Positions 385 through 23,389 of a stretch of DNA of 64,000 nt are shown piece after piece. The notes under the pieces are model-generated. The model was not told the DNA's origin and ran no database searches. It saw nothing but the letters and a program-made list of their open reading frames with translations. Source of the stretch: Isoetes taiwanensis (taxonomy: Eukaryota > Streptophyta > Lycopodiopsida > Isoetales > Isoetaceae); assembly GCA_021234155.1 (NCBI GenBank), contig JAJEKV010000071.1, positions 1,251,138 through 1,315,137 on the forward strand, in the 5' to 3' direction. Numbering within the stretch: position 1 is the stretch's first letter; each line of letters starts with the position of its first letter. A program made the position numbers and the translations under genes.

Positions 385-1962
385 CAGGACGCCCCTCGCT
401 AAACATACACCTACCGGCACTCTAAGAGGGAAATCCCCCATCTCCCAGCCAACAAACCGTATGCCCTTTGCCTGCCCTCCGCGACTCGAGATGACTCTTA
501 GTGCGAAGGGGACACGCAGGTGCCCAGCCCTTTCCCCTATGGGCTCCTATAACAAATGCGAATGGGAATAAAATGCTCAACCAGCATCAAATAAAGCAAA
601 TACTCACTGGCACAACCACCATATCCTCAAGTGCAAGGATGATAAACATAAACCAGAAACATGAGAGCTCCTACCCGTGCTCGTACCATAAGGAGGATGG
701 ACCGGACCGCTAGCCTCAAGATAGAGCAAACCGAAATATGGCAATGGCGGTGGGTCGCATAAGACAATGGTTAGGTTGACCACCCATCCGCCTCCTCAGG
801 TATTAAGCCTTTGGTGAGGGCTAAATCGCTAAGTGATTCCAGCCTTCCTGGATACGCATAAATCCCATGGCATCACCCACGGACTACCCGTGCTGCATCT
901 CCCCTGGTCCCACAGTGAAGGGTTGCACTTCCCCTCCTGTGGTCTGAAGTCTGGTGGCGGCTAGAGAATCGCGGACGACACACCCATTCGCACTCCACTA
1001 ATCCCCCCAAAACGAGCCAAGTCGACACTTTGCAACTCTCGAGGCGCACCATGGTTCCCAGAGGTGTTTCTGACTCCATGCTCTTCCCTCAACAAGGACC
1101 GACCATAAGCCTAGCCCACTGGCGGGGATCCCCCAAGCTCCCCACTCCTACAGGGACCTCCCTCCACATTTCCGCTTCAGCCCCCGCTGTGTGTTCGAAA
1201 CGCATCATATCTCCCAATAGCCCGTGGGCTCCTAAGTGCACGTGCCGCAACCACGGTGAACTAAGGGATTCCACTCTGGGGAGCATACTACATATGGCTC
1301 CTAGGTCTCTATCCCCCTTCCCAACACAAGAGGAGCAAAACATGATCAACCATCATCACATAATCATCATATATCATGAGAATAATCATAAGAACATCTT
1401 AACCTAATCATAAAATCTGGAATCCAAGGTTAGGGGGTTCATTGATTAGGCCCTAAGATGATGAATAATGTTCTAGGAGGGCTCTCTACCCTAGATATTA
1501 AGATACTAGCACATCTCGCAATGCTAATTCCAGATAGAGCTATCATAACGACTTCAATGCAAGCATACCCGCCCCAAGCCTCCCATCCCAAAACCGGCCC
1601 CACCGCCCAAACCTCCCGCCCGTTCTACGCAACGTCGTCACAAGAATACAACAAAACGTCAAATCGCATAGGGTTAATATCCCAGCGTTAAAGCCTGAAA
1701 TGCAATTCCACTAATATAAGTTAGGTCCACCTAGGATGCCATGTGGTTCACCAGGGGTGAGCTCTGTGTGGCGGGAGCCCAATAGGTTAAGGCCACGTGG
1801 AAAAATGGTCTTAACCTATGGGTTGGCTGGTTAGAATAGCTTAGTCATGCCCCCTAGTGCCACCCATCCATGGTATGCATAAGACTATGAGCTTAGGTTT
1901 GTATAGTGATTTCTGGGTCCAGGAATATACGTATTTATGGCGTATATTCCCTGAACGTCACA
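385..1962 (-). repeat. 3' LTR of chromovirus A
   Basis: The stretch is collinear with 11935-13563. Both contain the 'CTCGCTAAACATAC' start region, the 'GAGATGACTCTTAGTGCG' block, the 'CATCATCACATAATCATCAT' block and the 'GCTTAGTCATGCCCCCTAG' block. On the minus strand it begins TGTGACG directly after the polypurine tract. The far end near 385 is eroded: the CGTCACA terminus seen in the other copy is not intact here. Confidence 0.75.
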
Positions 1963-1976
1963 TTCTCCCCCTTAGG
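1963..1976 (-). other. Polypurine tract of chromovirus A
   Basis: On the minus strand the sequence reads CTAAGGGGGAGAA immediately before the LTR start TGTGACG. This is the expected plus-strand priming site of an LTR retroelement. The same motif lies before the LTRs ending at 13563 and 16891. Confidence 0.75.
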
Positions 1977-2850
1977 ACAATAAGCCGCCTCCTCAAATGA
2001 CTTCAAGCAGCCATGCACTAACCCAAATTTTATGTCCAAGAAAAAGAAGTTCAACATAGCATACACTTGAATTTAATTTAACGATCAACTTTTTATTAGC
2101 GAAAGAATAAATTTGTACAGGCTCTCGTACCATACAAAACATATAGCCTTAAATGTATGGGTTAATATTTCCTACAATAATTCAAAACATTATTATAAGA
2201 GTTATTAGGGTTCATATTCTAAACTATGGTTCTATGTCTTCTCGTAATGCAGCCCTTATTGATGCCCTCGCCTACTGTTCACGTTTACAAGGAACACTTA
2301 TCACGCTAGTTTAATTAATAAATTTAGGTTTTAGGGGGACCACCTCTACTTCCTCGCTGGAGTCAACTTGCCTGGTTGCTCCCCGTAAATACCCTTGCAC
2401 AAGATCATGGTCTCTTCGGAGATTGAGCCATGACTCCATTACATGCCCTATCATTGCCCATGATCAGTATGCTACTGCATATGATCGCCTGACGTGAAAG
2501 TACACCCCGCTGCATCATGCCCCGAGGCCTTCAGCTAGGAAACGCTCACCTTCCCATCATCAAGCAAGATGGCGATCACTTTAACCCTCTTCACCGCGAC
2601 CCTCCTACGCCGTGCGATCGACGCATAGAGATCATCCGACGATGTTCCATCATCGCCCACCATGCCCTCGCCTCACCACATGAATCCTGAATTGTCAGCG
2701 CACTTTGCGCGCGGTGACCTAGAGAATGCTCTGGGGCATGCATCCCATCATCTTCACACGATCCAAGATCTCGCACATGCACCCTACTAATTCAGAATGC
2801 ATGTATTCCGGCTAACCAACAAGCATACTAGCTAACCACCGGGCAAGTGG
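1977..2850 (-). other. Non-coding 3' region of chromovirus A
   Basis: The 870 bp between the end of pol and the polypurine tract have no sustained reading frame. The second copy has the equivalent at 13577-14478, with the same blocks such as TTAATTAATAAATTT and CATGCCCCGAGG, so the tail belongs to the element and is not a later insertion. Confidence 0.6.
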
Positions 2851-5800
2851 GGTGACTAAGTTGGAGGCATTTAACCCATCAAACTCCTTCATAACTCGGG
2901 TATTGCTTCTCCAAATCTTGCTTCAATACCCATGTCGCTGCCTTCCGGTGGGGTGCTTCCACTTAACCAAATATTGGGAGGAATTGAGACCTCTAGTCTT
3001 CTTGAATGACTTATCAAGAAGTAATTCAGCACAATTTCTACTTAAACCACCGTCATTTTCAACAAAGTTGGAGTATCCAAGACCTCCTCAGGGTTAGGAT
3101 TGTGCCTTTTTAATAAACTTACATGTGGAAAACCTTGTAGGAACCTTTAAGGTAGGAAGATCCAACTTGTAGGCAGGAGCCACTCTCTCCAAAATCTTGG
3201 AAGAGGACCAGCCCACCTAGGGGCAAGCTTCTTACCAACTCCCAATCCGAAACTTGGGCCTATCGCCACCTTAAACTCTCTTCACCTCAGTCCCGTACTT
3301 TTGTCGGCCACTTCTCGCACTTTTGCTGCCAATAAGTAACCCCTTACTTTTCCACCAAATACGATATCTCCTAACATCTGCTAGATACTTCAACCTTCTC
3401 GACGGGGATTGTGCTGTATCAGGGGTTGAAACTTGTACCGTAATTTACCATGAAAGGAGACATCCAGATGACTCTGTTTACACAGAAGGACTCCCACCAA
3501 GTGGATGTACTCATCCCCTTGGACTGCTCGTTCCACACATAGCCTCAAGCATATCTTCAATGATTCGATTGTCCTCTTCCGTCGGCCATCTGTTTGGGGA
3601 GATATGTCATGCTCATGGAGAGCTTAGAATGTGGAATGGTAAAGAGGTCCCTAGCCAAAAGGCACTCATAAACTTAGAATCCCTATCAGACATTATCTAG
3701 AGGCATGCCATGGAGTCTAAAATCTCCCTTACAACAACTTAAAGATCTAATCTCTGATTCGATAGTCTTGCAAGGCAACAAAATGTGCCATCTTAAGATA
3801 ACTTGTCCCTCGACAACCATCAATGCATCCTTGCAAGAAGAGTTCTAGGGAGTCTCTAGATGAAATCCATGCTTATGACCTCCCACTTCTCGTGATTTTA
3901 GCACTCCTAATGGCTCTAAAGCACCTGGGTGAACTGGGTTAACAAGCTTTTATTCTGTAGCTAATAACTAGCAATTCAAATATATGCAGCCTATCTTCTT
4001 CATTCCTGGCCAGTAACCATTTCAATCGCGAAATAGGTCTTCTAAAGCCCTGCATGCCCACTATATATTGGCTGTGTATGTCATGAAGAATTAACTTCCT
4101 TACCCACTGATGATTGGGGCAAATCTTTGAAATAGGGTCTTCATAAAGCCCTGATATTGGGGTTATTGGGTCATTGTAGTGTGTCATGAAGAATTAACTT
4201 CCTTACCCCTGATGATTCTAGCACACAACTTATGCTAATGATACCTAGCAGGTTGCTCTTCTAACTATAATACTTGAAGGCTTCGCTCTTTCCTAATTTC
4301 CGGCTTCCCTCGAGGAGGCTTTTCCATACCTCCTTTGAAGTCCACATCCGTTGCGGCAGGACTCCTCATCTCTTCTTGCCAAACTCACCGAAAGAGGAAA
4401 TCGATACAATCGCTGCCCTTGTTCAAAGATCTCCTAGAGAGAGCATGCCACAACATTAGCTTGCGGGCTTTATATATAATATAAAACTATACTCCTCGAG
4501 GAATTCCATCCACCTCCTTTGCCTTAAGTTGAGGGTGGCATTTTGGGTGAAAATCTTGAAGGCTCTCGGTGATCGGATATCTGGCTGAAACTTCCTCCCC
4601 AACAAATAATGCCTCCATATCCTTAATGCCGCTCGACAATGGCTAGCAGCTCCCGTCATGGGTTGGGTAAGCTGTTGCTTTCGGCTGTGGTTCATCTTCT
4701 TTAGTAGAGCTACCCTTCCTTCCCCTTCCTTTATTTGCTAGATCAAGCATCAGTTGCTATCAACCTGTTTGGGATCAGGAGAACAAAACTTATCTTATTT
4801 GATCCGAGAACAAGCAAAAGACACTCCTTAAGCTTCTCAAAGGAAGCTTTGGACTTTCTCTAACCAATAGCTGAGTCAATCCTAATCTTCTGGCCCTTGG
4901 AGGTCCGGACAAAGGGGACCTTCACTAGCAAAGTCCCTTCACTTAACTTTCTGTAATATCCCGGCAAACTTCTTACTGAACATTCCTTGAGCTGGCCAAT
5001 CAACTATTGCCTCAATCTTAGATGGATGTCAGAGATTCCCTTGGATGTTACCCATACCCCCAAATATTCCACTCCTTTGTTGCAAAGTGGCACTTGGAGA
5101 GCCCATACAACCCATGACGTCTCAACTTTTTCCAACACTTTCCTCAGATGTCGCATACAATGCTCTTCAATGAATGACTTGTGAGATTAGAATGTCATTT
5201 AAGAAGACAATAACAAACTCATCCAAGAAATCCCTGAAGATGTCGCTCATGAGGCGATAAACTTGCCGAGCATTCGGCCAATCCAAAGGGCATTATCAGA
5301 ACTAAAAATTGACCATACCGGGCTCTAAAGGGTCTTATGGATATCTTCTTTTTATTCTTATCCGTGGTACTCCCACCTCAAATCAATTTTAGAGAATACC
5401 TTGTTCTTTGTAACTGGTCCATTAGATCATCTCACCTTGGCAATGCATACTTATTCTTTATCGTCGCTTGTTGAGTCACATAGCCTATGCACATTCTAAG
5501 CTCCCATCTTCTTCACGAAGAGGTATCGGTGTCTAAAAAGGAGACACACTTGCCTAATAAAACCAAGCTCAGCAATTCCCTGAGCCGCTTCTTTGAGCTC
5601 AATCCACCTGGGTGCTCATTCTATACTACATCTTGGAAGGGTTTACACCGAGCTAATGTGATCTCACATTCCACACCTATAAGGTAGTAGTCAATACGAT
5701 TTCATCAGGAATACATCCTTAACTCCTGAAATAAGCCTTGCTATCCGCTTGGGAATTGTTTCCCCTTGGGGCACTTCCATCCCGATTGCTTGGCTCGTTG

Positions 5801-8800
5801 ATTCCATCCCTCAAGATGTAGTCCACCTTATTCCTTTCTATACTCTTTCCTTAGCTGCTTCAAAGAGATACACCCGCATGGGAGAAGCTACCTTCTTACC
5901 TTTCACTATCAATTTGTTGTCTGTCCGATGCTCGCCATGGTGACTTGGCCCCGTCAACAATCGATCATGGCTTTGGCTCGGCTTCAAGAATTCCATCCCC
6001 ACTATAAGATCCATATCTTCCAAAATCCATGACTCCGCCCCCCATCGGGCCACTTAGTCCCACTAAGGTCTATGTCAAAGATGATCCTTCTCCCTTAATG
6101 TGCCGAATGGCGTTTGCCATAGCCACCGGCCTTGGCTTAGATTTCAAATACCTTTGTTCTTTCATTAGGGGCAGCCAACCTAGGAGATGCAAAGTTGTGA
6201 GAGCTACCAGTATCTATGAGGACCACATATGGGTTACTATCTATGATCCCATCAGCAGAATGACAATGACCGATTTTCAATATCACCGACTCAATGTTTG
6301 CACATATGTGGCAGCCACCATCTATGAAATCTCGGCCTCATAGCGGGTCGTCAGTTTTCGTCTTCTTTAAAACGGGGGGGAGTCCTTAATCCACCGCCAA
6401 GGCTGCCCGCGATGACTAATGGGGAAATCATGCTTCAAGGTTCCTCGGCTGGAAGCACCGAAGCATAGCTTTTTCTCGATGCATTCCTCGCCTCTTCTCC
6501 TTCGGCAGACCGTTTAGAAGACGCTTTAGAGCACCGGCCTCGATGCACTTCTCAGGCGGGCTTATGGTCCCCAAAGGCTTTACTCGAGCCCTTACCTTGC
6601 TGCGCTGGCCTCCCCGATGGTGTAGGCCGGCCGATTGCTTACCCCGATATTGCCCCCCGAGCACGCCTCGAACTCTTACCCGGAAGTTGGTTGTTTTCCG
6701 GGGTTGCTGGTGCCTTCTCCAAACTTATAGCTTTATCTTCGCCCGTGAATCGACCTTGGGTTGATTGCTCTAACAAGCCTCTTGATATTCTTTGCTCAAC
6801 CCCTCAATGTAGGTATCAACCGCTTGCCTTTTCCGAGACTCTGTGAACATGGAGCCCGGAGCCGCATGAATTCCTCTTCAGGTACTTTGCTAACTTGACA
6901 AGCTACCTGGTTCAACCTGTAGAACCGTTTGATCTCGGCCCGCTAGTATGAGATCTTGGCACATAGTGCTTACGAAAAACTTTTGCTGAAAGTCTTAAAT
7001 CCGCAATTGTTCTTCTTCCTTTGTTGGACTTAGCATATCCTTCCACCGCATCCTTGCGGTCCAATGAGGTTAGTCAGAGTAACTTTCCCTATATCCTTGT
7101 CTTTCATGCCGTAGGAGTTGCTAAATTCTTCCATTTCATCAAGCCATGCTTCAACCTTCCATGTTCGACCGTTTTCCCCGAACCGCCCAGCTTTGTCTTC
7201 CATATGTTGCTCATAGCACTATCCACCTTTTTTTCGGGTAGTCATCTGCCTTTTCTTGCCCTTTTCCCCTTGCTCTAGTGTGCCTGGATCGACCGCCGGA
7301 GCTAGAACCGCCTTTCACCGGAAGAGCTTATCTGATGTCGCCGGAGCTAGATGATGATGGGCTCCCTCGGTTCTCCTTTTCCTTCTCCTATCCCCTCGAC
7401 GTCCCTCGTTGCCCTCCCCTTCCGGGCCGAGGAACTTCGCCACCACCACTTGGTGGAGGTAGAGGACCGCCTTTTCCCAAGATTCATCGGAGGTGTCAGC
7501 CAGCTTGATGAGGTGTTGCATCTGGTTCTCATCTGTACCAGCCTTGCTTGCTGACCTCTGGTGACATGTCTTGCTCAAAGTCTTCTTTTCTCTCACGAAC
7601 AAGTTCCTTGGCACCCAATTATGCTTGTCGGCTACCGGGTCTTGGGATCCCGCGACTGAAGTTTCCTTTTGCCGCAAGGATTGATCATCAATACATGTTA
7701 TTTGGATTAGATGTTGATCACTCTTACTTGCAATTGAATTATTTTTAGTTATATAGAAATCATGCTAAGCATTGCATTTATAAAAATGCTTAATAATAGC
7801 CATTAATACATAGAAGTTACATGGTAGGATAGATATGTGCTAACACAATAGAGTTCAGGAAAACATTTAGCACAATTAAACTTAAAGGAAATTTTACAAT
7901 TATTCAATGGCCTCCCCGAAGCTTGAAGAAATTCTTGACATCCCCGAACCCGGAGGCCTTTACCGAGGTTGCGAAGATGTTCCTTTTGTCGATCCCCCCC
8001 TTCGAAAGTGCTCTGGTCATCTCCCGATTCCCGAGTTCCGCAGCTTGTCGCTACTAACCGAAAGTGATGCGCCCTCGAGGTGTCCTCTTGCAAAGTCGAG
8101 GCAATGAAGCGCCATCGGACCTCTTTGAAAAGGATGATGTGGTCCCATGGGCGATATCTTCGAAAGTGCTGCCCGAAGCCCGAGTGCTATGGAGAAGCGC
8201 CACGGATTCTTCCCCTTGGCTGAACTCCTTGTGGAAGACCACCATTTGCCCTTGGCCGAGGGCTGGAAGATAGTAGCGGCGCCGTGCCTTTACCCGTGCC
8301 TCGCGATCCGGTGCCCTTCCTTTGAGCCGCCCCGCCGTAGGCATCTACCGCCATAAGATCTTCATGGTCTCCACATGCTGGTTGCATTGTCCGTTGATGC
8401 CGCTGACCCTTCCCTCATGCTCCTCGGCTCGAATCGCCCGGCTTTGAGCTTGGGCCCTCCCCGGGTTTGGCCAATGTGTCCTCAGATATCCGGGCTGAAC
8501 TCCTCCTCCGAAATGATAGGTTCCCGCCGTCGATAGATCTCCTTATCGCCGATAGCCGCTATGTTCGACATTGTCTCCCAAAGATAAGAGTGTCTTCTCC
8601 GCCTCCCCTTTGGAATCTCCCCGGTATGAATAGTCGGCGAGGTCCGTGGCTTTTCCCATGTGCTATCATGCCTAGAAGCTCGCCGATTCAAGTCCCCGCT
8701 CTCGGCAAGATGACAAGTTAAGGATGTCATTTGTTAAGATGTAATTCTCTCCGGCCGATGACTATCTACGACGAGCCGCGGATTCCACCCGCGGCTTGGT

Positions 8801-9010
8801 GGTTTTTTCCGATGTCGCCGCCGTGCCTTGACATGTATCCTCGCATCCTTGTTGCCTCCCCGCCTCCCCATTCGGGTTTTGCTCCCCTAATCGCCAGAAG
8901 TCTTCGCCGACGGCAGAATCGGTGCCCCCGACGCCCGTGCCATGGTATTCATATGCGGAGGAATCTATGTTGAGGATTTGATCCCGGGCCCTCTGGCGTA
9001 TCAAGTGGTG
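2851..9010 (-). pseudogene. Chromovirus A gag-pol, broken
   Basis: Gag-pol of the Ty3/gypsy element is spread over all three minus frames with many stops. In order it shows a gag region (about 9010-6400, including 'TYIEGLSKEYQEA'), an aspartic protease with VLIDTGSSHNF (about 6191-6223), reverse transcriptase with FVIVFLNDILIS (about 5180-5222; the usual catalytic pair DD reads ND here), RNase H with 'ALRIWRHYLLGRKF' and 'LNLRQRRWMEFLEEY' (4480-4640), then integrase and chromodomain remains (about 4400-2851). Order and spacing match copy B at 14479-16503. The gag N-terminus and the gag-pol boundary are poorly defined. It is certainly non-functional as written. Confidence 0.75.
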
Positions 9011-10209
9011 CTAAGTCTAAGGGCTGAACGGAAGGTTCCCCTACTTTGTTGATTGACTTATAGTGCATGAAGAGGGCAAGGGCTGTCTCGAGATGAAAGG
9101 TACCTATGCCTATTATGTATGCGGTGTCATGTAATCGGGCATGGTCCTAGTCCTATCCCATAGCTGCTTCTTGCCTTTGGATCCTCCCCATCTCTCGACC
9201 TAAGGCTTGGGTGAGTGTCTCAAGAGAAACCCACCCTCCCCCTAGGAGGTAATCTAACTTCCCAAGGTAGGACATGTTGGTCGTATTGGCACATGATATC
9301 TCCGTGGTAGTATGGTGTTCTAGACATGAGTTGCATGAAGATCAAACAAGTGGTCAAACACAGAGAAGGCTTGTTCAACAGAAGCCGATGGATATGGCTT
9401 GCAAAGATTGTACCATCTTTCAAAGTTGTTGGGCCATTGAGCAAAGAAGGGTGCGTAAAATGGCTTGCAAAGATCGCTGAGGAATCAAAAATCGCCTTAA
9501 GTGGCTGGGAGCAGTTCGTTGAAGGGAAAAATGGCAAATGAGGTCCCTTTTATAGACTATGGTTGGCCTCTGGATTCGTGGCCAAAGGTACCTACATAGG
9601 AAGGCCTTGGTTCTATGGCTCGGGGTGTCCAAAATGAGCTACCATGAAGTGCAAATCTAAGCAAAACAAGGCAACAAACACTACATGGCGCTTTGTTTGG
9701 TCAAATTTGGCTAATTTGGGTCGAAAATGGCTGACCGGGTGAATCCATGGATGGCCTCCGCTCCGCCTTAACGCAGACGCCGTTTGGTGCGGTCTCACCC
9801 CGGTTGGCTATTTTGAGGAGCATTTTTGGTCAAATTTGGGAGTTTGAAGATGCTAACATGGCCAATTGATCAATTCTAACCTAACTAGCAACTTATTTTG
9901 AACAAAACTCCACACCTAAAGGCATATTTTTGCGACCCGGTGAATCATGAACGGCCATTGCCGCGGACGCTAGAGGCCATTGGCGGTCTCACCCTGGGCT
10001 GGCCCTATTTTGTGCTTTTTTGATGATTTTTTTGTCAAAAATTCTCGTTGTAGTCCCGATTTCTAAGGTATTCCTAGAATTCTACTACAATTGGGTTTAA
10101 TTTCCCTAGATTTCAAGCATCCAAAATTTTTCTACTTACAGAGGAAAACAACTTTTATCTTAATAGGGAAAAGCACAATTACAATAAAACTTAACTGCTT
10201 AACAAAATT
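9011..10209 (-). other. Non-coding spacer between H3-like frame and gag
   Basis: No convincing gene is seen in these 1.2 kb. A plus-strand frame at 9326-9541 is open for 71 codons but has no recognisable motif. The stretch contains a diverged direct duplication listed separately. Confidence 0.4.
9735..10045. repeat. Diverged direct duplication, about 200-bp period
   Basis: Two segments, about 9735-9845 and 9935-10045, both run GGTGAATC, then a GGCC- and CGC-rich core ending in GCGGTCTCACCC, then a T-rich stretch with TTTTTGGTCAAA or TTTTTTGTCAAAA. They are similar but clearly diverged. Confidence 0.55.
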
Positions 10210-11358
10210 TCAAAATTGAGGCTCTAGGGCCTCTCTCTCAATCCTCCGCGGCTAAGTGAATGTCCTTCGGCATAAGGGTGGCTCTCTTAGCATGGATGGC
10301 ACGTGAGATTCCCTTCCTCAAAGAGCTGCACCAGCTCTGCTTCAGCGGGGCCTTTGTGGGCCCGAAGTCATTAGAGGGGTAACCCTATAATCGGTCCTGA
10401 ACTTCCTCGTGATGATTTCCCTAAGGAGACGCCAAGGGCTTTCCTTATGAGGAGATTTGTGCACATTTGGAAGTGCTTGATCTCCTAAACACCCCGTGTA
10501 GGGACTATTTGGCCCTGCGGGTGAACCCTTTTGGGTTTTTCCGGCCTAGGTGGGGTGGCTTAGGCTGATTTTTTCTTTCGCCTGCCGCCTCGACGCCCTC
10601 TTCAGACTTCTCCTCGGCAAGACCGCCGTTGTACCTGGTCGGCCCGGCGGAGGTACTTCTTAATGCGCCTTCATCTTCTTAGCGAGAATTCGCGATCTGG
10701 CGGGCGTGAATTCCCGTTCTCAGGCTTATACCGCTTCCTTGACCACCTTCCGGTGGCTCAGAGCCCGTTAAAGGTAAAGGTGGTCTCAGCGTCGAGTTGG
10801 AAGACCCCCGGCACCCTGCCTCCTCTCCTCCTCGTCCCCTTCTTCCTTGTACCTCCTCCTCATCCACGGGGCTCTTCCAATAAGCGGTCGAAGCCGGGCA
10901 CATGCCGTTTCTTCTCTTACGTCCTCCTCTCCTGCGCCCTCAGCTCCGCTCTCGCTCCCTCTTCTTCCTAGCAGCCTTCTCCTCAGGCCACTCTGCAACT
11001 TTTCTCCTTGCCCTTCTTATTTGGTGCTGAAGGGCCCGCCTCTTGAGTTTGGTGCTTCCAGCTGGCTGCTTCTTGCACATCCACACGCTCCTCAACTGCT
11101 CTTCTACCTCTGTGTCCGGCGAGGGCCAAAGTGGAGTTCGCCCGGTTCTCTGGTGCCCTTTTGCCGGAGAAGAGCGGGGCTCGGTGCATCCTCTTTCTGC
11201 CGTGGAAGGTGTCGCCGCCACGCCGAGGGAGACTCCTCATCTCCCGGCCCGGTCAAGGTGCTCAGAACCTTCTTGACGATGCAAACCCCATCGCCTGGTT
11301 TCATAGAGAGGGTAGGTCGCCGTTGTACTTCCTTGTCCGTCTGCTTAGTTCGAGCCAT
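10210..11358 (-). pseudogene. Histone H3-like reading frame 1, broken
   Basis: The frame opens with ATG and MARTKQT, the exact start of histone H3. A Lys/Arg/Glu-rich tail of roughly 280 codons follows, spread over several frames. The H3 core is then recognisable in order: EIKHFQMCTNLLIRKA (about 10445-10500), PWRLLREIITRKFRTDYR (10384-10437), EAELVQLFEEGNL (about 10300-10340) and AIHAKRATLMPKDIHLA (about 10250-10302). Canonical H3 has REIRRYQKSTELLIRK, LVREIAQDFKTDLRF and [17 protein letters not shown] at these places. The HFQ and TNLLI spelling in the alpha-N/alpha-1 part recalls plant centromeric H3 (CENH3). Several frameshifts and stops make it a pseudogene. It lies between the primer site of chromovirus A and gag, on the same strand. 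Whether it was an element gene or a captured host gene is inference. Confidence 0.7.
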
Positions 11359-11918
11359 ATCTTACGGTTCGTAAAATGGATGACGTAAAGCCGAAAGCAA
11401 GAGGTGGTGGGGGAAAAGGTTGGGGAGAGAGAATGAGGTGTCAGATATTTAAAAAGGAGGGTCCCTAGGAATATTCTCCCACCATAATTACCCTATTTAT
11501 TAGCCTCCCCTTATTAATTACACCCTATTTAGTAATTATTTAATTATTAATGTATGTATTAACCCCCAGATTAATTCGTATTATACCTTAAATTTTTCGA
11601 ATTTTCTAATGGTTTGAAGTGCTAATTATGGATTTGCTTCATTTTTCACTTTCTGGTTCCGATTGGCATGATTCTTTTAACCCATTTTAGGTGAAATTTG
11701 ATGCAGATGCATAATTTTTACTCCAGATTTACTAGAAGATATATTGGACTCATTCATTCCTTCGTCTAACACTTAACCTTATTCGGACCCACTACCTAAG
11801 AGAAAAATTTTTTCCCTTATTTTCTGGGTTCGATGGTGGAAATTTTTATTTCACACCCCTATAGGCCTGTTAGACTACTTTCATGGTTATGGTCGCTAGT
11901 TCCTCGGTCAACCAAGAA
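11359..11918 (-). other. Leader of chromovirus A
   Basis: This is the AT-rich non-coding stretch between the primer site and the MARTKQT start. No gene or strong motif is visible. Confidence 0.5.
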
Positions 11919-11934
11919 CATCGCCTGATACCAT
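11919..11934 (-). other. Primer binding site, initiator-Met tRNA type
   Basis: On the minus strand the LTR ends GGGCGTCACA and is followed by ATGGTATCAGGCGATG. TGGTATCAG is the start of the usual plant initiator-Met primer site; the following bases differ slightly from TGGTATCAGAGC. This marks the LTR at 11935-13563 as a 5' LTR for the sequence to its left. Confidence 0.7.
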
Positions 11935-13563
11935 TGTGACGCCCTCGCTAAACATACGCACTTACCGCACACTCTAAGCAGAAATCCCCCGCCCCGGGCC
12001 AACAACCGCATACCCCTTCGTCGCCCAAGACTCGAGATGACTCTTAGTGCGGGAAGGGGACACGAAGGTGTCTTTGCGCGCCTTTCCCTATGGGCTCCTA
12101 TAACAGCCGAAGCAATAAACATGTCGAACTAGCATCAACAATACAAATACTACCTCGGCTGGGTAGTCCATCACATATCCCCAAGTGCAAGGATGATAAA
12201 CATAAACCGTAAAACATGAGAGCTCCTACCCGTGCTCAGACTGTGAAGGGAGGATGACCGACCGCTAGGCCTCAAGATAGAGGCATCGAAGTCATGGCAA
12301 TGGCGAGGGCTGGCATAAGACAATGGCTAGGGTTGACCATTCCATCCCCCTCCCCTGTGCATACTTTGCAAGATGGGCTAAATCAGGCTCCTGGACTCTA
12401 GCCTTCCTTCGGATATGCAATCCCATGGCATCACCCATCGGGACTACCAGTGTTGCATCTCCCCGGGGACGAGGCAGAAGGGTTGCATCTCCCCTTCCCG
12501 TGGTCTAGAAGTTCGCGGGCGCTAGAGAATCGGACGGACACACCCATCTGCACCGACTTAACCCCCCAAAACCAGAGCCAAGTCGACACTTGCAACTCTC
12601 GAGAGGCGTGGCGGCACCATTGCCCCAGAGGTGTCGGACCCATGCTCGGCCCCTCACTAAGGATCGCACCATGCCTAGCCCACTATGGGATCCCCCAAGC
12701 CCCCACGGGCATGGGGATCCTCCCTCCACATTGCTTCTAGCCCCGCTGTGTGGTGCCGAGTCAGATCATAGCCCCAATAGCCGGGTGGGCTCCTATGCAC
12801 AAAGCCGCAACTAATAGGAACTAAGGGATCTACTCTAGGAGCATACTACATATGGCCTTAGGTCTCTATCCCCTTCCCAACACAAGAGGAGCAAACATGA
12901 TCAACCATCATCACATAATCATCATATCATGAGAATAATCATAAGAACATCTTAACCTAATCATACAAATCTAACTAAGGTTAGGGTTCATTGATTAGGG
13001 TTCAAGATGATGAATACTGGTTCTAGGAGGGCTCTACCCTAGATATAAGATACTAGCACATCCGGAATGCTAATTCCGTGATGAGCTATCATAACGACTA
13101 CTCTACATACCCCGCCCCAAGCTCTCCTCCAGATCCCGGTGTTCCATGGTCTTCGACTCGTGTAATGCCGCTCTTGCTCCAAGAACGGGTCTACCCCCAC
13201 GGGGCCGCCGCACCAGCCTATGCCACAAAGAAACGATGTTCAAAATGGGGTTTCAAACCAGTAGATGAGTCCCAAGGTGCTAGGGCTGGGAAAGAGGCCT
13301 AGGTTAGGGTTCCCACTAATATAAGTTAGGTCCACCTAGGATGCCACGCGGGCACCAATAGGGTGAGTCCCGCGGTGGCGGGTGCCCAATAGGTTAAGGC
13401 CACGTGGAAAAATGGTCTTAACCTATGGTTGGCTAAGTTATGTGAATAGCTTAGTCATGCCCCCTAGTGCCACCATCCATGGTATACAAGACTATGAGCT
13501 TAGGCTTGTATAGTGACGGGTCCGTGAATATATGTATTTACATTATATTCCCCTAACGCCACA
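11935..13563 (-). repeat. Shared LTR: 5' LTR of copy A, 3' LTR of copy B
   Basis: The LTR is 1.63 kb. On the minus strand it begins TGTGGCG and ends CGTCACA, giving TG...CA ends with a short inverted repeat. It has a polypurine tract on one side (13564-13576) and a primer site on the other, so it serves two internal regions. This is what unequal recombination between elements, or tandem insertion, would leave. Short frames inside it are not genes. Confidence 0.75.
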
Positions 13564-13576
13564 TTCTCCCCTTAGA
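13564..13576 (-). other. Polypurine tract of chromovirus B
   Basis: The minus strand reads CTAAGGGGAGAA directly before TGTGGCG of the LTR, matching the tract of copy A with one G fewer. Confidence 0.7.
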
Positions 13577-14478
13577 ACAATGTCGTTCTCAAAGATTTGC
13601 TTAAGGTGACTAACCTACCTTATGCCCGCAAAAAGAAACAACATAGCATACACTTTAATTTAATTTAACGATCAACTTTTATTAGTGAGAGTCAAAATTT
13701 AGGCTATATTTGTACTTATACAAAATTATATAGCCTTAACAAGGTTACTTTTACAATAATTCAAAATATTATTATAAGAGTTATTAGGGTTCATATTCTA
13801 AATTATGGCTCCCCTATCTTCAGAATGCGCTCCTTATTGATGCCCACCTTTACTTGCCCGCACAAGGAACACATTACGCTAGTTTAATTAATAAATTTGT
13901 GGTTTTAGGGGACCACCCCCCTTACCTCCTTGAGCCGAACTACTGGCTCAAGGTTGCCCTACTACCTTGCACAAGATCATGGCCCTTTCGGATTTGAGCT
14001 TAAGGATCATTTAAGATGCTCCCATCATTGCCCATGATCAAGTGCTACCTCGTACACGATCGCCCCGATCGAGTACACCCCAGTGCATCATGCCCCGAGG
14101 GTTTCAGCTAGGGAACGACTCACGCCCCATCATCGCAAGATGATCACTTTAACCTTCACCATGACCCTCCTACGCCGTGTGTGCATTCCCCGCGATCGCT
14201 GCATAGAGATCATCCGATCGATGTCTCATCATCGCCCACCATGCCTCATTCCTCACTCACATGACCCTAATGGTCATGCGCACCCCTTGGTGCATGTGAC
14301 CTAGAGAATGCCCTAAAGGCGTATCCCATCATCGCCCACACGATCCAAGATTCCGCACATGCACCCTACTAACTAGAATGCATGCCGTGGTCTAGGCTAA
14401 CTAACAAGCATACTAGCTAACCACCGGGCAAGTCGGGTCCACTAAGCCTGGGAGACGACTCTTGCCCATCAAACTCCT
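13577..14478 (-). other. Non-coding 3' region of chromovirus B
   Basis: Collinear with 1977-2850 and without a sustained reading frame. Confidence 0.55.
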
Positions 14479-16503
14479 TCATAAACTCCGGTATTGCTTC
14501 TCCAAATCTTGCTTCAATACCCATGTCAAAAGCCTTCCACGTAAGTGCTTCCACTTAACCAAATATTGGAGGAATTGAGACCTCCTAGTCTTCTTGAATG
14601 ACTTATCAAGAAGTAATTCGTGCACAATTTCTACTTGCTCCTCCGCCATTTCCAACAAAGTTGGAGTATCCAAGACCTCCTCGTGGTTAGGATTGTGCCT
14701 TTTAATAAACTTACGCGGAAGACCTTGTGAACCTTAAGATGGGCCGAAGATCCAACTTGTAGGCTTGGGAGCCCACTCTCTCCAAAATCTTGAACGACCA
14801 GCCCACCTAGGGGCAAGCTTCTTGCAACTCCCAACCGAAGCTTAGCTTGCTTAACCTTGATCTTCAACCGCATTACTATCGCCTACCTTAAACTCTTTTT
14901 ACTGTCCTGGTGGCTCGCGGGCCACACTTTTCTCGGCCGACTTCTTGCCGCCAATAAGTAACCCCTTATTTCTTCCACCACCGCCGTGATATCTCCTAAC
15001 ATCCGCCGGGATACTTCAACCTTCGACATGTGATTGTGCCGTATCCGGGTTAGGCACCGGGTACCCGTAATTTACCATGAAAGGAGACATCCGAGATGAC
15101 TCCTCGCTTTGGCACTATTGTAGGCGAATTCCACCAAGTGGATGTACTCATCCCACTTGACCGCTTGTTCCACACATAGCTTCTCAAGCATGTCTTCAAT
15201 GATTCGGATTCGGCCCCTTCCGTCCCGCCATCTGTTTGGGGATGATATGCCGTGCTCATGGAGAGCTTCGCCCGAATGGTGCTAAAGAGGTCCCGCCAAA
15301 AGGCACTCATAAACTTAGAATCCCTATCGATATTATCTCCCAGGCATGCCATGGAGTCTAAAAAATCTCCCTTACAAATAACTTGGCAAGATCTAATGCG
15401 GTGTCAAGAGTCTTGCAAGGCACAAAATGTGCCATCTTAGATAACTTGTCTACGACAACCATCAATGCATCCTGCTCTCAAGAGTTCTAGGGAGTTCTCG
15501 TGATGAAATCCATGCTTATGACCTCCCACTTCAGATTTGGCACCCCCAATGGCTCTAAAGCACTGAACTGTTGCTCCGCTTTTAGTTGGCCGACACAACC
15601 GGGTAATTCGAATATATGCAGCTATCTCGCTTTTATTCCTCGGCCGGAAGTAACTACTTCAATCTTGAAATAGGTCTTCATAAAGCCCGCGATGCCTCGC
15701 TATTGGGGTCAAGTGTGTGTCATGAAGAATTAACTTCCTTACCCCCGATGATTCGCCACACACAACTTATGCTTGTGATACAACAGTTGCCTTCCTTCTT
15801 ATAATACTTGAAGGCTTCCCGCTTTTATCCTGCTCGCTTCCCTCGAGAGGCTTTCCCATACCTCATTGAAGTCCACATCCGCTGGCAAGGACTCCTCAAT
15901 CTTTCTTGCCAAACTCACTCGAAAGAGTGGAAATCGCATTACAATGCGCCCTTGTCCAAAAAAGGTCTCCTAGAGAGAGCACCGCCACAACATTAAGCTT
16001 GCCGGGCTTATATATAATATCAAAATCATACTCCTCGAGGAATTCCATCCACCTCCTTTGCCTTAAGTTGAGGAGTGGCTGGGTGAAAAGATACTGAAGG
16101 CTCTGGTGATCGGTATCTAGCTGAAACTTCCTCCCCAGCAAATAATGCCTCCATATCCTTAACGCCCTGACAATGGCTAGCAGCTCCTGATCATGGGTTG
16201 GGTAGCGTTGCTCGGCGTCGTTCATCTTCTTCGAGTCGTAGGCGACTACCCTTCCTTCCTGCATCAAGACTGCCCCTGTTGCTATCTTGCTTGCATCCGT
16301 TGCTATCAACTTATCTTTACTCGGATCCGGGAGAACAAGCACTGGCGCTGTTGTTAAGGCCTCCTTAAGCTTCTCAAATGAAGCTTGGACTTTCTCTAAC
16401 CAATGGCTAGTCCAATCCTTAATCTTTTTGGCCTTGGTGAGGTCCAACAAAGGGGACGCCCACTTAGCAAAGTCCTTCACGAACTTTCTGTAATATCCCG
16501 CCA
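14479..16503 (-). pseudogene. Chromovirus B pol 3' half, with chromodomain
   Basis: Truncated second copy. RNase H is open from 16504 to 15896 and shows ATDASK, YDSKKMNDAEQRYPTHDQE and TDHQSLQYLF. Integrase remains at 15352-15050 include DRDSKFMSAFWRDLF and STAYHPQTDGGTE. The region after it has AHLKVHKVFRVSLLK, the usual integrase C-terminal element. At 14673-14479 a chromodomain is visible: QVEIVHELLLDK, FLQYLVKWKHL and TWVLKQDLEK. In this family the chromodomain is known to direct integration to chromatin marked on the histone H3 tail. The copy stops abruptly at about 16503, inside the end of reverse transcriptase, where a different LTR begins. Stops and frameshifts between domains make it non-functional. 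Confidence 0.8.
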
Positions 16504-16891
16504 ACCAGTCTCCTGGCTGGACCCATTATCTCAGAAGGCATCCATTCCTCAGGTCTGTTACAAGAACTGGTAGCTGCGCTGGCTCTCCTCTTTTCCAATT
16601 CGAATTTGGGGCAGAAATGGGGTAGGACCCCAATTTCTCCTCTCAATTTGGCAAGTCCCACTTGGCCAATCGATTTGGGCCAGGTGGCACTTTACTATTG
16701 GCTTCAGTTAGCTAATTATAACCTAATTAGTGTAATTAGGTTATTTATCCACTAATATTTTTAGTATAGCTAATAAAATCCCTTTTAGGTGAACCCAAGT
16801 TATTCCCTATTGACCCTTAGGGGTCTAGTTAGATACTGGTGATGTGTCATAGTATGCGTACGTATACCGTATAAATACCTAGAACGCCACA
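16504..16891 (-). repeat. Partial LTR of a third element (C)
   Basis: On the minus strand TGTGGCGTTCTAGG follows a polypurine tract, as in elements A and B, but the LTR body is different and is cut off at about 16503 where copy B begins. It is probably the first 390 bp of a 3' LTR of a related family, joined to copy B by recombination or insertion. Confidence 0.6.
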
Positions 16892-16997: not shown

Positions 16998-17557
16998 CTA
17001 ATTGTGGTCTCCCCGAATCCTTCGGGCGAGAGCTAAATCCTTCGTCATGATAGTGACCCTTTTGGCATGGATGGCACAAAGGTTGGCATCTCCAAAAAGG
17101 GCTATCAGGTAGGCAATGCAAATATGGCAAAAGTCTAGAACCGCAGATCGGTTTTGAATTCTTGGGCTATTTCCCGGACTAGGCGCTGAAAAGGGAGTTT
17201 CCTTAGCAATAGCTACGTGATCTTCTGGTACTTCCGTATTTCCTTTAAGGCCACACTGCCAGGCCTATACCGATGCGACTTCTTTGGTGGCGCCAATCTC
17301 TGAGTCTGTGTCAGCTTCTTGGGCAAGGTCGTGCCCCCTGTTACTGGGTGAGGCCGGGCTGCATCTACTTGGTCTTGCCGGCGAGCAGAGCTAGTCGCCT
17401 TGCCAATGCCCCCAATAGTTTTGAGCTTCTCTTTGTATGCACTTCCCGACTTACGGGCGGTAGACTTCCGTCGTCGCTTAACGGTGGGGGTCTCGGTCTT
17501 ATTGAATCCACTCCGTAGTGTCAAACCAAAACGAACTACGAAGAAGTCCAACAACAA
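16998..17557 (-). pseudogene. Histone H3-like reading frame 2, broken
   Basis: A basic N-terminal tail of about 90 codons (with RRRKSTARKSGSAYKEK, recalling the ARKSTGGKAPRK part of H3) leads into a near-canonical H3 core: [18 protein letters not shown] (17225-17280), [19 protein letters not shown] (about 17160-17212), KTDLRF, then [12 protein letters not shown] and [11 protein letters not shown], ending [12 protein letters not shown] and a stop at 16998-17000. The core is broken by TAG where H3 has Glu of STELL, by TAG at the Gln after DLRF, and by a small deletion and frameshift before AYL. The first 30 or so codons of the frame are not H3-like. It sits on the minus strand directly upstream of a polypurine tract and LTR start, so it occupies the 3' end of an LTR element. 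I am confident of the H3 relationship; its status as an element gene is inference. Confidence 0.85.
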
Positions 17558-18741
17558 TAGTTGTCAACATTTGCAAGACAGTTACAGAAACTTCATCTAT
17601 TCTGGATATCACTATATTTTTCTTGGACTATTATAGCTTTAAATTGAATTTAAAGAGTAAATCCAGATAGAAAATAACCACCTGAAGAAACGCCAAGACT
17701 GGCAAAGGAAAACTTTTGGATCTCAAAACCGCTTGCACTGCTGCAGAATCGTGCACAGACCAATATTCCTTGCTAGAAATCGCAATAACAGCATAGTCTC
17801 TTATAAGGGCTTACAAAAAAAGGCCCTTTCTTCAGGAAGCCCAATGCATTCCTTGCATTCGGAATGTGGAATGAGAATGCAACTACCTAAATTTACTTGT
17901 ATTAGGTATTACATGTAGACATTTGGACATTGAACTCATTGAAAATTGCTTTCGGTTGACCTGTTCTAGTGGGTCTAGCCAGACCCTACTTCTTGTGAAA
18001 AAGCACCTCCACAAGCAGCCCCACGACCGGCACGACCACCGGCCAAGAGGTGTGCTTCTCGCCCCGTGACCATCTCGACGATCATGGGCCATCGACATTG
18101 TTCGAGCTCGAGCTACAAAATAATTGACATTAAAGTGACCTCCAAAGGTCACTTTAATTTTACGTTCATAATTTTTTTTGGGTTAACTTTCTGTTAAGTT
18201 TATTAACCTAACATAAAGTAGTCTGAACATTGTTTGGGTTAGGGATTTTAGGTTAAAAAAATTAACGGAATGCTAATCATTTAACATAACGGAACATTAA
18301 CCTAAACTGTGATATGAATCTAAAACTCGATAAAAGCTTAACGGAATCCTAACTTAAACGGCGGGTGTGAAGGTACCCTTATATCTCTATTTTGGGACAA
18401 ATTTCATATTGCATATTTTTAGCATATTCAAATTCATAAATTTCACCTCAAAAGTATGAAAACATAATATCATATTATTTACAAAATAGTCAATATTTCA
18501 CAATATAGCACTATATCATAAAAACATGATGAACAAAATTTACATAATTATTCACTTTTCTTGAAGCACCCCCAATATGATAGCCTTCTTCCTTACATCC
18601 TGAGGCATTGCAATTATCACGTTTCTACTTGGAACATTTTTTGGAGTCCATGAGTATAATACACTTTTAAACTATAACTAGGATTTCTCCTCCACCTCTT
18701 TGTCCAACAATCTAAATATATTTCTTTACCTGAGACATTGG
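17558..18741. other. Non-coding stretch
   Basis: AT-rich sequence with no recognised gene. If element C was complete, its internal region should lie here, but I see no gag or pol motifs. Confidence 0.4.
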
Positions 18742-19307
18742 TCAACTGATGCACTGGACATCAATATCCCCTACGCATATGAAGTTAATATTACCTTCTT
18801 CTTTGCAAATATTGGAGATGGCGTATCCCAACCACATTGGATAGGTCTCTAAATCTGCTGGCTTTACTACCACAAATTGGTGGCACTCCAAGTCAGTAGA
18901 AGGTTCATAAGCTTCCATGCCTAGATACTTTGGCCTATTGTTCTTAGAACCAATATAGTGTTTGTCAGAAGGAGGAGGATCATATTGCTTACGAATGCTA
19001 CTAACAGCGTTCTCAGCACCTGCTAAGGTCTTGCACCTAGTTTTAGACAACTACCATTTTTTCAATTCTTCTGAGGATGTGTATACCTCCCCCAACAAGT
19101 TAATCACCTTCTTCCAGTAAGCTATCAATCACGATTGGTGTCATCGGGGTTGGTTTGCCAATGCTTTATATAGTCCTGGATTCCTTCCTTAGTCAATCCC
19201 AATTGCTTCACTTCTTTAGTAGAGTACGTGATGACCATGAATCCAGAGCGCGGGGCAATTTTGAATCTGGGCTTTGAAGACCTCGACATAACAAGGAGGT
19301 TCGCCAT
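18742..19307 (-). pseudogene. Unknown gene fragment with BAH/Tudor-like tail
   Basis: Two minus frames (19307-19125 and 19050-18742) join across a short gap. The first contains GFMVITYSTKEVKQLGL and ends in a stop; the second contains CKTLAGAENAVSSIRKQ and then FVVVKPADLETYPMWLGYAI. The latter resembles the small chromatin-reader-like module (hydrophobic-V-P...W-G) found at the C-terminus of DUF7869-type mobile genes, and compares with GMFVLVRPGDDETPTWLGF in the gene at 47303-48307. A fragment of a related mobile gene is the likeliest reading; the family is not certain. Confidence 0.4.
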
Positions 19308-20285
19308 CTTGTCCGATCACTTTGATAATGTAGTTCATTCTGATCAAAAGTGAAGCTCGCAACTGTATGCTATTTTCTCAGAATCAGGAGCTTCGTTTCC
19401 TAGTCTCCAACCTCTATGCCCGCACGCCTCAACATGAACCACCACTGGGGCATATGACTCAAATGCCTACAGTGGCATGGAGGTGGAGCCCGAGGCAGTT
19501 GAGCTGGAGTCGAGGACTTTTGCTGGGGTCCTACTTGAAGAATGCACACAGGCCTACAATGGACCAACCCACACAGACCAACCCACTCAGGCCTGCAATG
19601 AAAATAGAGGCATCGACAGCCCTGCTACTCAGTAGACCGGGCTTGATCAAGTAGGATTTTGCAGGGGAGACAAGTTTGTTTGGTCTCGAATGAGCCAGAC
19701 AATTTTGTATTTGGTCTATCCAGATTATAATTGTAAACTTTATCAATCAATACAACACTTTTGTCTATGTCTATCTTTCCCTTAAAATAATACTTGTTAC
19801 ATACGTTTTTTTAACCATTAAAATTGATTCGCCATTATTATTTCGCCTCACAAATATTTCAAACCCCATATTTGATTCGCTTTGAAATTCAAAAATTTTC
19901 ATGCAGTGTTCAAAGCTATTTCTTGGCAGCTTTTTTTTCTTCGAAAGCAGCCGAAAGCACTTATCCGAAACGAACTTCCGGGCTCGTTATTAAAGGATTC
20001 GGTGATGTCTTTAAAACAAGAGGTGGTCGAGGCAGACGGGGTCGAGGGAGCGATGGCCGAGAAAATTCAAAACTTGGCTCTTGTCAAGTTATAGAGGATA
20101 CTGATCAGACCCCTATTCAAGGTATTTAGCCTTCCTTTTCACTATGTATCACAAAGTTGTATAAAGAGTATTATATTTTGCATGAATTTGAATTCATTTC
20201 TTACAATATACAATGTATATTTAACTTTTATCAATTCTCTGAATATTGGCTTTTAGAATATAATTATACTATAGTTTTCTGTAGT
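19308..20285. other. No gene seen
   Basis: Apart from short overlapping frames around 19367-20129 with no motif, I see nothing to annotate. Confidence 0.35.
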
Positions 20286-21840
20286 TTTAAGCAGAGGGGT
20301 ACACGCCCAGCGTGAACTGGAGGTGTTTATAGAATAGAATAGAATAGAATATGATTTTATCGTCCACGGTAAAGGGACAATTAGAGATAGTGGTGTTCAA
20401 TAAGGATATGGGTCTATGCTTAGCGTGAATCACCTTGTCTATAGATAAACTGGAGTTAAAGTTTACTATATTGTATAATTACTAGAAGTTTCCTGCTGTT
20501 TTCGTGCATTTATGGTAAAGGCATGCATGAAATGTGTATAAGGAAGGAATTAGAAACACGCCAAGCTTGAATTGAACTAGTTTGAGCTTTAAATTCACGC
20601 CAAGCGTGATATCATGTTTAAAAGTTTGCTAAATCATGTTCTTGTTTGTTTTGCAGTGCCAAAGAGGAAGAATACCCTAATAATTCCAGATCTATTCCTG
20701 ATAAGAAGCCAAGGGTAGATGACCCAGATGTGACACCACATGATCTTACCTTAGATGATGAAGGGCCTATACTTATAGCAACCACTGAAGCCCTGAAGAA
20801 GAAATGGATGAGGATGCTGAGTGGTTCCCAAGACAAATGGCAAGCTGGACTTAACACTCTTCTCTGGGAAAAAAGAAGCAGACAAGATGACCAAACAAGG
20901 TATCATAATCTCATGCAAGGAAGAGGACAACACCTCAAGGCAGAAGAAGGATCTGCTCAAACTTACTCATTGTAGAGCAACATCATATAAAGATACTTTC
21001 ATGAAGATGGAAGCAATGTTGAGACATGTTTTAAGTATGGTTGGCTTATTAAAGTAGTAGTCACACCAATATCTATATGCCATGGGGTTACAGCCGTGCG
21101 TAGAGGCATGTTCAATAAACCTACTCAAGTCACTACCGCAAAGAAGCTAGAGAATTACGGTTGTCGAGGGCATGGAGGCTTCAGGCTTTGAGAATGAACA
21201 AGGCAGAGTGGCATAGCTAGAGGTCATGAACAAGCTAAATAAGTGCTCTGACCATTATTCATGAGGTCTTAAGACAACATTTCATATCCATATAAAGCAC
21301 CTCATCTATTCTCCGAGCTCCATTTACGTCAACAGACGTTACGACCCAGCTCATGCTATAGAGATTGTACATAGCATGACTAATAATCCAGGTCAAATGC
21401 CTATGACTGCAGATGTGTTACCTTGGGATTCGAACACAAAGAAGCCTATTGAGTGGTCGACTGATTATAAGGCCTGATTAGACAGGCAGAACAAACAAGT
21501 CAGCAAATGTTCTACAATCACTATGCATATAGAAGGTGCCGATTCTTGGGTGCCAATACCTCACCAACAGATTTGGCAGAGATTAGTGCCGCCTTAAACG
21601 AAATGGGGAATACTTACAAAAGGTATTTTACTACAGTAAGATGTTATGCTTTTAATATTAAAAGTTAAATCAATTTAATTCATGCCAGCGTGCTTTTTAA
21701 AATCAGATAAAGCATGTCAAAGTAAATTGCATTGATTTAAAAGCACGCCCGGGCGTGAATTATGTTAATTTAAAAGCATGCCCGGCATGAATTCAGCTTT
21801 GTCTAGAATTGTAAATAGAATACTGCGGGCGTGATCTCAC
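20286..21840. repeat. Cluster of CACGCC/GGCGTG-type short palindromes
   Basis: A short imperfect palindrome of the form CACGCC-(0-2 bases)-GGCGTG followed by AATT recurs near 20303, 20416, 20560, 20594, 21685, 21744, 21776 and 21825, usually next to TTTAAAAG. Weaker versions continue near 25755, 25860, 25905 and 25985. Confidence 0.5.
20646..21060 (+). pseudogene. Unrecognised decayed reading frame
   Basis: The plus frame 20646-20975 is open for 109 codons (KKPRVDDPDVTPHDLTLDD, ALKKKWMRMLSGSQDKW) and appears to continue in another frame to about 21057. It is rich in charged residues and shows no known domain. Fragments of similar style continue at 21470-21600. It is probably part of a decayed mobile element; I cannot name it. 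Confidence 0.25.
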
Positions 21841-22217
21841 TAACTTAGTGGCATCACCTAAGCACACTTGGAGTGTTTCTGTTCTAAGATACAAATCTCA
21901 TTTCTTATACTATTGTAGTCCATACGTGGAGGGATTGCACCATGCTCGTCAACAATGGGTAGAATATAGCTGCCCATTACCCATCAGACAAGCGGGTCAA
22001 AGTTTGAAGCGCTCAAGTTGCTGGAACGGACTCCATCGCAGACTATTATACATGATAAGAAGAAGACTATAAAAAATCAAAGAAAAAAGATGGTGATAAC
22101 AATGCAAATCAGAATAGTAACCCATGGGAGACCGCTCGAGTAGATCTTGGTATTGCGTTCCCGAGGCACCGGCATAAATGAGTAGAAGCGACTACTCATA
22201 AACGTCTAGACGATTTT

Positions 22218-22362
22218 TGTAACGTTCCTAACCAACATGCCATTAACCAACTGGGCAAAACCGTCTAGACGTTTATGAGTAGTCGCTTCTACCCATTTAT
22301 GCTGGTGTCTCGGGAATGCAACACCAAGATCTACTCGAGCAGTCTCCCATGGGTCTGTTACA
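22218..22362 (-). repeat. TRIM-1 complete LTR (145 bp)
   Basis: Ends are TG and CA on the minus strand (TGTAACAG...CGTTACA). It matches the plus-strand LTR at 23227-23371 in inverse orientation and is the same length. Confidence 0.8.
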
Positions 22363-22524
22363 ATCTCTCCTACTAAAACTATGTTCGTCCTCTAAAACTA
22401 TGTTCGTCCTCTAGCATCACAATACCATAGACCACACCATCCCATGGTGTCCAAGACCAAGTCATGACCTACCATCCAACGGTATTTCGGGTCATCCTTG
22501 CCCCCATGGAGACTCGAACTTGAG

Positions 22525-22540
22525 CCCTGCTCTGATACCA
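22525..22540 (-). other. Primer binding site of TRIM-1
   Basis: The minus strand reads TGGTATCAGAGCAGGG two bases after the LTR end ACGTTACA. This matches the initiator-Met tRNA primer site TGGTATCAGAGC. Confidence 0.85.
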
Positions 22541-22594
22541 AATGTAACGTTCCTAACCGATATGCCCTTAACCAACTGGGCAAAATCGTCTAGA

Positions 22595-22866
22595 GGGTGT
22601 AAATATGGTAATGCTACCCAAAAAGCACCATCCGGACAAGTGCTTTAGGTGCTTTGCTTGAAGACATTTCTCTTCAACGACCTTAGAGTTGTTACTTAAA
22701 AAACAATATATATGATGTAGGAAGGCGTGGAGCGATGATATAGATCTCGTGGGAGGAGCGCATAAATTGTGGAGGTCAAGTTATGACACATTTTTTCTTA
22801 GTCATAGGTGCTTTAGGTGCTATGTGCTTTCGCGCTTTATTGGGTAGCATTACCATATTTACACCC
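22595..22866. mobile_element. MITE with perfect 26-bp inverted ends
   Basis: The 272-bp element begins GGGTGTAAATATGG and ends with the exact inverse complement. The 26-bp ends (22595-22620 and 22841-22866) match perfectly. TAGA flanks both sides (22591-22594 and 22867-22870), a possible target duplication. It lies inside one LTR of TRIM-1, so it inserted later. It has no coding capacity and I cannot assign its superfamily. Confidence 0.8.
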
Positions 22867-23067
22867 TAGACTTGGCGAGGACTTGGATCGCCGTTGTTGT
22901 CTCCCCACCCGACTTGGTCGTAGCTAGACGTTTATGAGTAGTTGCTTCTACCCATTTATGCTGATATCTCGGGAACGCAACACCAAGATCTAGTCGAGCG
23001 GTCTCCCATGGGTCTGTTACAGTTTTGCCCAGTTGGTTAAGGGCATGTCGGTTAGGAACGTTACATT

Positions 23068-23083
23068 TGGTATCAGAGCAGGG
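23068..23083 (+). other. Primer binding site of TRIM-2
   Basis: TGGTATCAGAGCAGGG follows the LTR end AACGTTACA after TT. It is identical to the site of TRIM-1 in inverse orientation. Confidence 0.85.
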
Positions 23084-23226
23084 CCCGAGTTCGAGTCTCC
23101 ATGGGGGCAAGGATGACCCAAAATACCGTTGAATGGTAGGTCATGACTTGGTCTTGGACACCATGGGATGGTGTGGTCTATGGTATTGTGATGCTCGAGG
23201 ACGAGCATAGTTCTAGTGGGAGAGAT

Positions 23227-23371
23227 TGTAACAAACCCATGGAAGACTCCTCGAGTAGATCTTGGTGTTGCCTTCCCAAGACACTGGCATAAATGGGTAG
23301 AAGCATCTACTTATAAATGTCTAGATGGTTTTGCCCAGTTGGTTAAGGGCATGTTGGTTAGGAACGTTACA
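23227..23371 (+). repeat. TRIM-2 complete LTR (145 bp)
   Basis: TGTAACAAACCC...AACGTTACA, preceded by the purine run GTGGGAGAGAT. It is the direct partner of the partial LTR at 23022-23065. Confidence 0.8.
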
Positions 23372-23389
23372 AGATCCTTCTGATAGCAC

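Follow-up and report, generated by a model that had tools for sequence, protein, structure and literature searches.

A decayed histone H3-like sequence in the leader of a dead Isoetes taiwanensis chromovirus, probably a functionless passenger

How does a reading that opens with the N terminus of histone H3, MARTKQT, come to lie between the primer binding site of an LTR element and its gag? The question arises in a 64,000-nucleotide stretch of the Isoetes taiwanensis assembly GCA_021234155.1 (contig JAJEKV010000071.1, positions 1,251,138 to 1,315,137), here called the window, for which a preliminary description had reported such a frame inside a chromovirus. Our best explanation is that this sequence, relic A, is probably an intronless H3-family gene copy of plant origin, now dead, which bears a long additional tail at its N terminus and was captured by, or inserted in, the chromovirus leader and carried there as a functionless passenger. 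Coordinates of the elements, of relic A and of a second H3-like sequence, relic B, are collected in Table 1.

Table 1. Features of the two H3-like relics and the retroelement remains around them (positions in the window)
Feature	Positions	Strand	Remarks
Partner LTR, far end of element holding relic A	388..1962	-	starts at 1962 after polypurine tract; 388 is the alignment end
RNase H remains, element holding relic A	4372..4967	-	identical residues with the RNase H reading at 15899-16504: 139/193; 22 frameshifts and 1 stop
H3-like relic A	10231..11358	-	MARTKQT start, charged tail, H3-aligned part; frameshifts and stops
H3-aligned part of relic A	10231..10652	-	H3 residues 1-134; first ~25 residues align poorly
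Primer binding site TGGTATCAGGCG, tRNA-Met type	11922..11933	-	one base after LTR
LTR (TG...CA) upstream of relic A; also 3' LTR of truncated neighbouring copy	11935..13563	-	preceded by polypurine tract (13563 side), followed by primer site (11935 side)
3' half of second copy	13564..16504	-	RNase H, integrase-like reading, weak chromodomain, polypurine tract
Start of another LTR	16525..16891	-	after polypurine tract; lower limit approximate
H3-like relic B	17007..17500	-	H3 core preceded by a divergent, TARKS-containing tail; 1 frameshift, 2 stops, 5-residue gap

The similarity of relic A to histone H3 is real. MARTKQT begins at 11358 on the minus strand, as had been described, and is the sole exact copy in the window's six-frame translation (127,996 residues), where 3.7e-5 copies are expected from composition. 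Because relic A changes frame, a canonical H3 query was aligned to the DNA with frameshifts allowed. This alignment scored 193 with 64 of 134 residues identical, five frameshifts and three stops; 300 dinucleotide shuffles of relic A gave a mean of 40.9 (SD, 5.7) and a maximum of 63. Across both strands, 5 of 172 tiles scored above 52 in the same alignment, each of them overlapping relic A or relic B. The H3 core pieces that had been recognized were recovered by phmmer as well, canonical H3 matching the six-frame translation at 10302-10646 (E = 2.1e-5) and 10244-10300 (E = 1e-3). One-frame searches of relic A in Pfam, PDB and NCBIfam were too weak to use: the Pfam Histone profile (PF00125) reached 18.4 bits, under its cut-off of 26.4, and the best single-frame hit in PDB had an E of 0.11. 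The resemblance that a profile search had been proposed to detect stays under threshold there and rises above chance in the shuffle comparison. Of the H3-like frame originally claimed, the start and the core are present, but they do not make up one frame: the MARTKQT frame holds 12 stops across 10210-11358, and the H3 alignment, with its frame changes, ends at 10652, short of the MARTKQT start. Relic A carries frameshifts and stops, and the present copy is dead, in agreement with the preliminary description.

Between the MARTKQT start and the H3-aligned part lies an N-terminal tail of about 228 codons. Lysine plus arginine make up 20-24% of the tail in all three frames, so its basicity, partly a matter of composition, means little by itself. 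No family match to the tail was obtained in Pfam or NCBIfam, and no relatives of it turned up in the Pfam, PDB and NCBIfam searches. GC content, followed in 150-bp steps, is 0.27-0.41 at 11937-11488, 0.46 across the start (11487-11338), 0.51-0.61 at 11337-10288, 0.35-0.40 at 10287-9988 and then 0.44-0.51 again. This GC-rich stretch, which is flanked by AT-rich sequence and covers nearly everything between the ATG and the end of the H3 part, suggests a single ORF; relic A was therefore probably an intronless reading frame that spanned about 375 codons, opening with the ATG and closing with the H3 sequence, and has since been broken. The H3 core contains no introns, and we infer that MARTKQT, tail and core once formed a single ORF. 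Chance likeness in a purine-rich, basic-coding stretch, for which the lysine and arginine in all three tail frames and the weak single-frame searches might speak, is refuted by the null tests and by the exact MARTKQT and has next to no probability.

Relic A sits between the LTR ends 11935 and 1962 of one element, whose LTRs are 78.8% identical over 1,252 alignment columns (388-1583 versus 11938-13127). The marks of a chromovirus found here are the LTR pair, the primer site and the polypurine tract; plant chromoviruses are Ty3/gypsy elements with a chromodomain in the integrase. Since it is flanked by an LTR with its primer site in one direction and by pol remains with a related LTR in the other, relic A is inside the element, barring complex rearrangement. 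The primer-site pattern is no commoner in the window than chance predicts (47 sites within 3 mismatches of the 12-mer TGGTATCAGAGC, against 48.9 expected), and weight is therefore carried by its position one base past the LTR. Gag, at about 7800-7000, and protease, near 6200, were read from motifs by eye, and no Pfam domain was found at 6000-10209 at E up to 0.01. The placement first described, after the LTR and the tRNA-Met-type primer site and on the coding strand, is borne out by reading, while the gag downstream is a motif reading. From the primer site to the gag-like reading the leader measures about 4 kb; its part between relic A and gag contains weak, diverged direct repeats at 8270-8830 and 9690-10000 (minus strand), with spacings of 194, 261 and 539 bp. 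The element holding relic A is an old, dead chromovirus.

The neighbouring truncated copy at 13564-16504 runs into the LTR at 11935-13563 and so stands in tandem arrangement with the element that holds relic A; it is 78-79% identical to 1708-4967. Its RNase H (15899-16504) matches PF17917 at E = 3.3e-35, and its Chromo match (14494-14613) reaches 23.5 bits (E = 5.2e-5), under the cut-off of 25.1. The integrase in this copy was read by eye alone, the ORF at 15050-15352 giving no Pfam match, integrase included. A comparison of RNase H with viral and prokaryote genome collections returned no related locus. When 388-4967 is set against 11938-16504, gaps are unusually many, with 135 openings versus 293 mismatches over 2,555 columns of one alignment.

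For relic A to have been captured, the element would have copied in, between primer site and gag, either a transcript of H3 type or an H3 gene without introns, for example by template switching during reverse transcription, and would then have carried it as a passenger; as the element decayed, the H3 copy and the element would have broken at a similar pace. We infer that relic A was already inside the element when the element inserted. The damage to the relic A core, of the same order as that to the element's own RNase H, argues for capture. At matched identity (the RNase H reference degraded to 0.56 identity, ten trials), the core has 2.0 frameshifts per 100 bp versus about 3.1 for RNase H, rates of the same order that speak somewhat against equal age and are not decisive. 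Against capture stand these fewer frameshifts, the tail without relatives, the direct repeats of 14-16 nt that flank relic A (for example, 9450-9463 and 11366-11379, 93%), although such repeats often arise by chance, and the single copy, no second one showing relic A within element borders. With a leader of about 4 kb and a shared LTR, a later nested insertion is possible; beyond these short direct repeats and one 25-nt inverted pair (72%), no repeats bounding a nested insert were found around relic A.

Relic B, absent from the preliminary description, is better preserved than relic A and matches H3 more strongly. Canonical H3 aligned to 17007-17473 with a score of 360, against a shuffle maximum of 47 (n = 300), and the rice CENH3 aligned as far as 17500. 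The corresponding phmmer matches were 84.8 bits at 17108-17302 and 47.6 bits at 17007-17147, and the Pfam Histone profile gave 59.8 and 46.7 bits in two frames, above the cut-off of 26.4. A first protein search with the relic B ORF found nothing at E = 1e-3 among 71 candidates; a longer single-frame query returned 7,963 matches. The 120 of these that were listed are all labelled Pfam Histone, and tandem H3 copies raise the best-ranked among them. With some H3 proteins the alignment extends into the tail of relic B, but that tail alone reached at most 7.0 bits (E = 0.14) among 193 H3-type proteins of the 7,963 matches. Relic B ends 115 bp before the LTR start at 16891, an LTR of which the first ~50 bases alone resemble other LTR starts and for which the window holds no matching 5' LTR. 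Membership of relic B in an element is unproven, because no Pfam domain was found upstream of it at 17500-20500 (E up to 0.01). Repeats around relic B comprise six direct families and eight inverted pairs; of these, only two weak direct pairs straddle it (25 nt at 72% and 14 nt at 93%). A sequence of about 160 bp at 18150-18309, MITE-like by eye, is an imperfect self-inverted repeat with 65% identity.

In the core, 39 of 88 residues are common to relics A and B, whereas identity to canonical H3 is 50 of 95 for relic A and 71 of 89 for relic B. Each is nearer canonical H3 than it is to the other, which gives no sign of one element-borne H3 family; apart from being H3, nothing ties the two together.

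Whether relic A descends from a host CENH3, as its pseudogene, concerns the donor and is compatible with the other readings; we regard this as possible, though not favored. In its support, relic A has the CENH3-like residues HFQ, TNLLI and TLM, one extra residue before loop 1 and a long tail, and CenH3 variants in general are described as having a long unconserved tail (PMC4357034). However, canonical H3 fits better, with its score of 193 versus 148 for rice, 122 for maize and 118 for Arabidopsis CENH3, the references being sequences from these three angiosperms only. Residues diagnostic of H3 only and of CENH3 only number 7 and 7 in relic A, as against 13 and 4 in relic B. A tree of 17 rows, 4 of 21 having been dropped beforehand, had no starred branch among its 13 inner ones and gave relic A a very long end branch (1.9); relic B joined a metagenome protein (P0154) with support of 91/88, under the star threshold. 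Literature on CENH3 in early land plants yielded no usable sequence. Measured against these angiosperm references, relic A fits CENH3 no better than canonical H3, and its affinity to CENH3 appears equivocal; the earlier view that the core is nearer plant CENH3 was not upheld by these scores and residues.

It is rather improbable that relics A and B are what remains of host genes or pseudogenes of the H3 family, neighbors on one strand that were never mobile and were split when chromoviruses inserted and recombination occurred. In favor of this are the closeness of the two relics, which lie less than 7 kb apart in one orientation and in differing contexts, and the lack of pol upstream of relic B, but relic A is bounded by the LTR and primer site and by the pol remains and related LTR.

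Still less likely is a standing accessory gene, an H3-like ORF that the chromovirus family would carry ahead of gag, perhaps as a chromatin-targeting protein or histone mimic paired with the element's chromodomain. The sense orientation, the GC stretch that resembles a single ORF and follows an AT-rich leader, the retained MARTKQT, the second H3 relic beside another LTR and the weak chromodomain match in the neighboring copy are consistent with such a gene. Against it, relics A and B are both closer to canonical H3 than to each other and lie at opposite ends relative to LTRs, the region upstream of relic B lacks Pfam domains at the threshold given above, and the tail of relic B scored as poorly as noted among the H3-type proteins. 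The ARTK start of H3 is recognized by chromatin readers, and a plant chromovirus lineage with its own long-tailed H3 ahead of gag might have kept that start and used the protein with its chromodomain for chromatin targeting or DNA packaging; we consider such a lineage more doubtful again. Of the origins offered in the preliminary description, a captured host gene accords with our preferred reading of relic A as a passenger, while a targeting or mimic role is without evidence, given one dead copy and a relic B that is not specially related and occupies another position relative to its LTR.

The rest of the window contains further features of mobile and host type. Inverted tRNA-like repeats at 22100-23420, SINE-type by eye, carry exact TGGTATCAGAGC at 22529-22540 (minus strand) and 23068-23079 (plus strand), and ARAGORN called no tRNA in them. 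Copia-type-like pieces were seen by eye at 31072-34753 (minus strand), with TGGTATCAGAGC at 35647-35658 (minus strand). Two peroxidase genes, or pieces of them (PF00141; class III by eye), face opposite ways at 39436-40203 (plus) and 40439-41014 (minus); together with the Replitron domain given next they suggest a land plant. On the minus strand, an ORF of 391 amino acids at 43431-44606 contains a Replitron HUH endonuclease domain (PF21859, E = 3.9e-15), and one of 347 amino acids at 47303-48346 matches DUF7869 (E = 2.6e-35) and is transposase-like by eye. At 53279-54903 (plus), a lysine/glutamate-rich ORF of 433 amino acids overlaps one of 179 amino acids, and Pfam gave no match to either with E up to 0.001.

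Like plant chromoviruses, the element holding relic A shows a TG...CA LTR, a tRNA-Met primer site, RNase H, a polypurine tract and, in the neighbouring copy, a weak chromodomain match under the cut-off; it differs from them in that an H3-like ORF sits in its leader, which measures about 4 kb, and integrase and gag were read by eye. Relic A resembles plant CENH3 and H3-like variants (PMC4357034) in joining an H3 core to a divergent long tail, and differs in its better fit to canonical H3 than to the three angiosperm CENH3s and in the roughly 235 codons that precede its H3-aligned part. Host gene capture by LTR elements and H3 capture by a DNA transposon are already known. As a single dead copy, relic A is one more gene capture or nested insertion; if other copies carried the ORF, it would mean a retroelement encoding a core histone. 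Among the literature matches listed (titles and abstract starts, with few subscription journals), there was no H3-bearing plant LTR element, and a word search did not find 'histone' in the main text of a 2026 review of plant gene capture (PMC13317346). In maize, 425 LTR elements with gene fragments, from at least 189 captures, are described (PMC2774510); as in relic A, a piece of a host gene lies between the LTRs of a plant element, although by word search 'histone' occurs 0 times in that main text and in that of a second source on such captures, and the capture of relic A rests on one copy. Relic A as a single copy is of interest mainly because fungal transposons, too, have captured H3. In Dothideomycetes, hAT DNA transposons captured and amplified H3 without introns (PMC6710886). 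These sequences are, like relic A, intronless and H3-like within a transposable element, with dead copies in Pseudocercospora fijiensis; unlike relic A, which is one copy with a long extra tail in a plant LTR retrotransposon, they were carried by a DNA transposon and number hundreds of copies.
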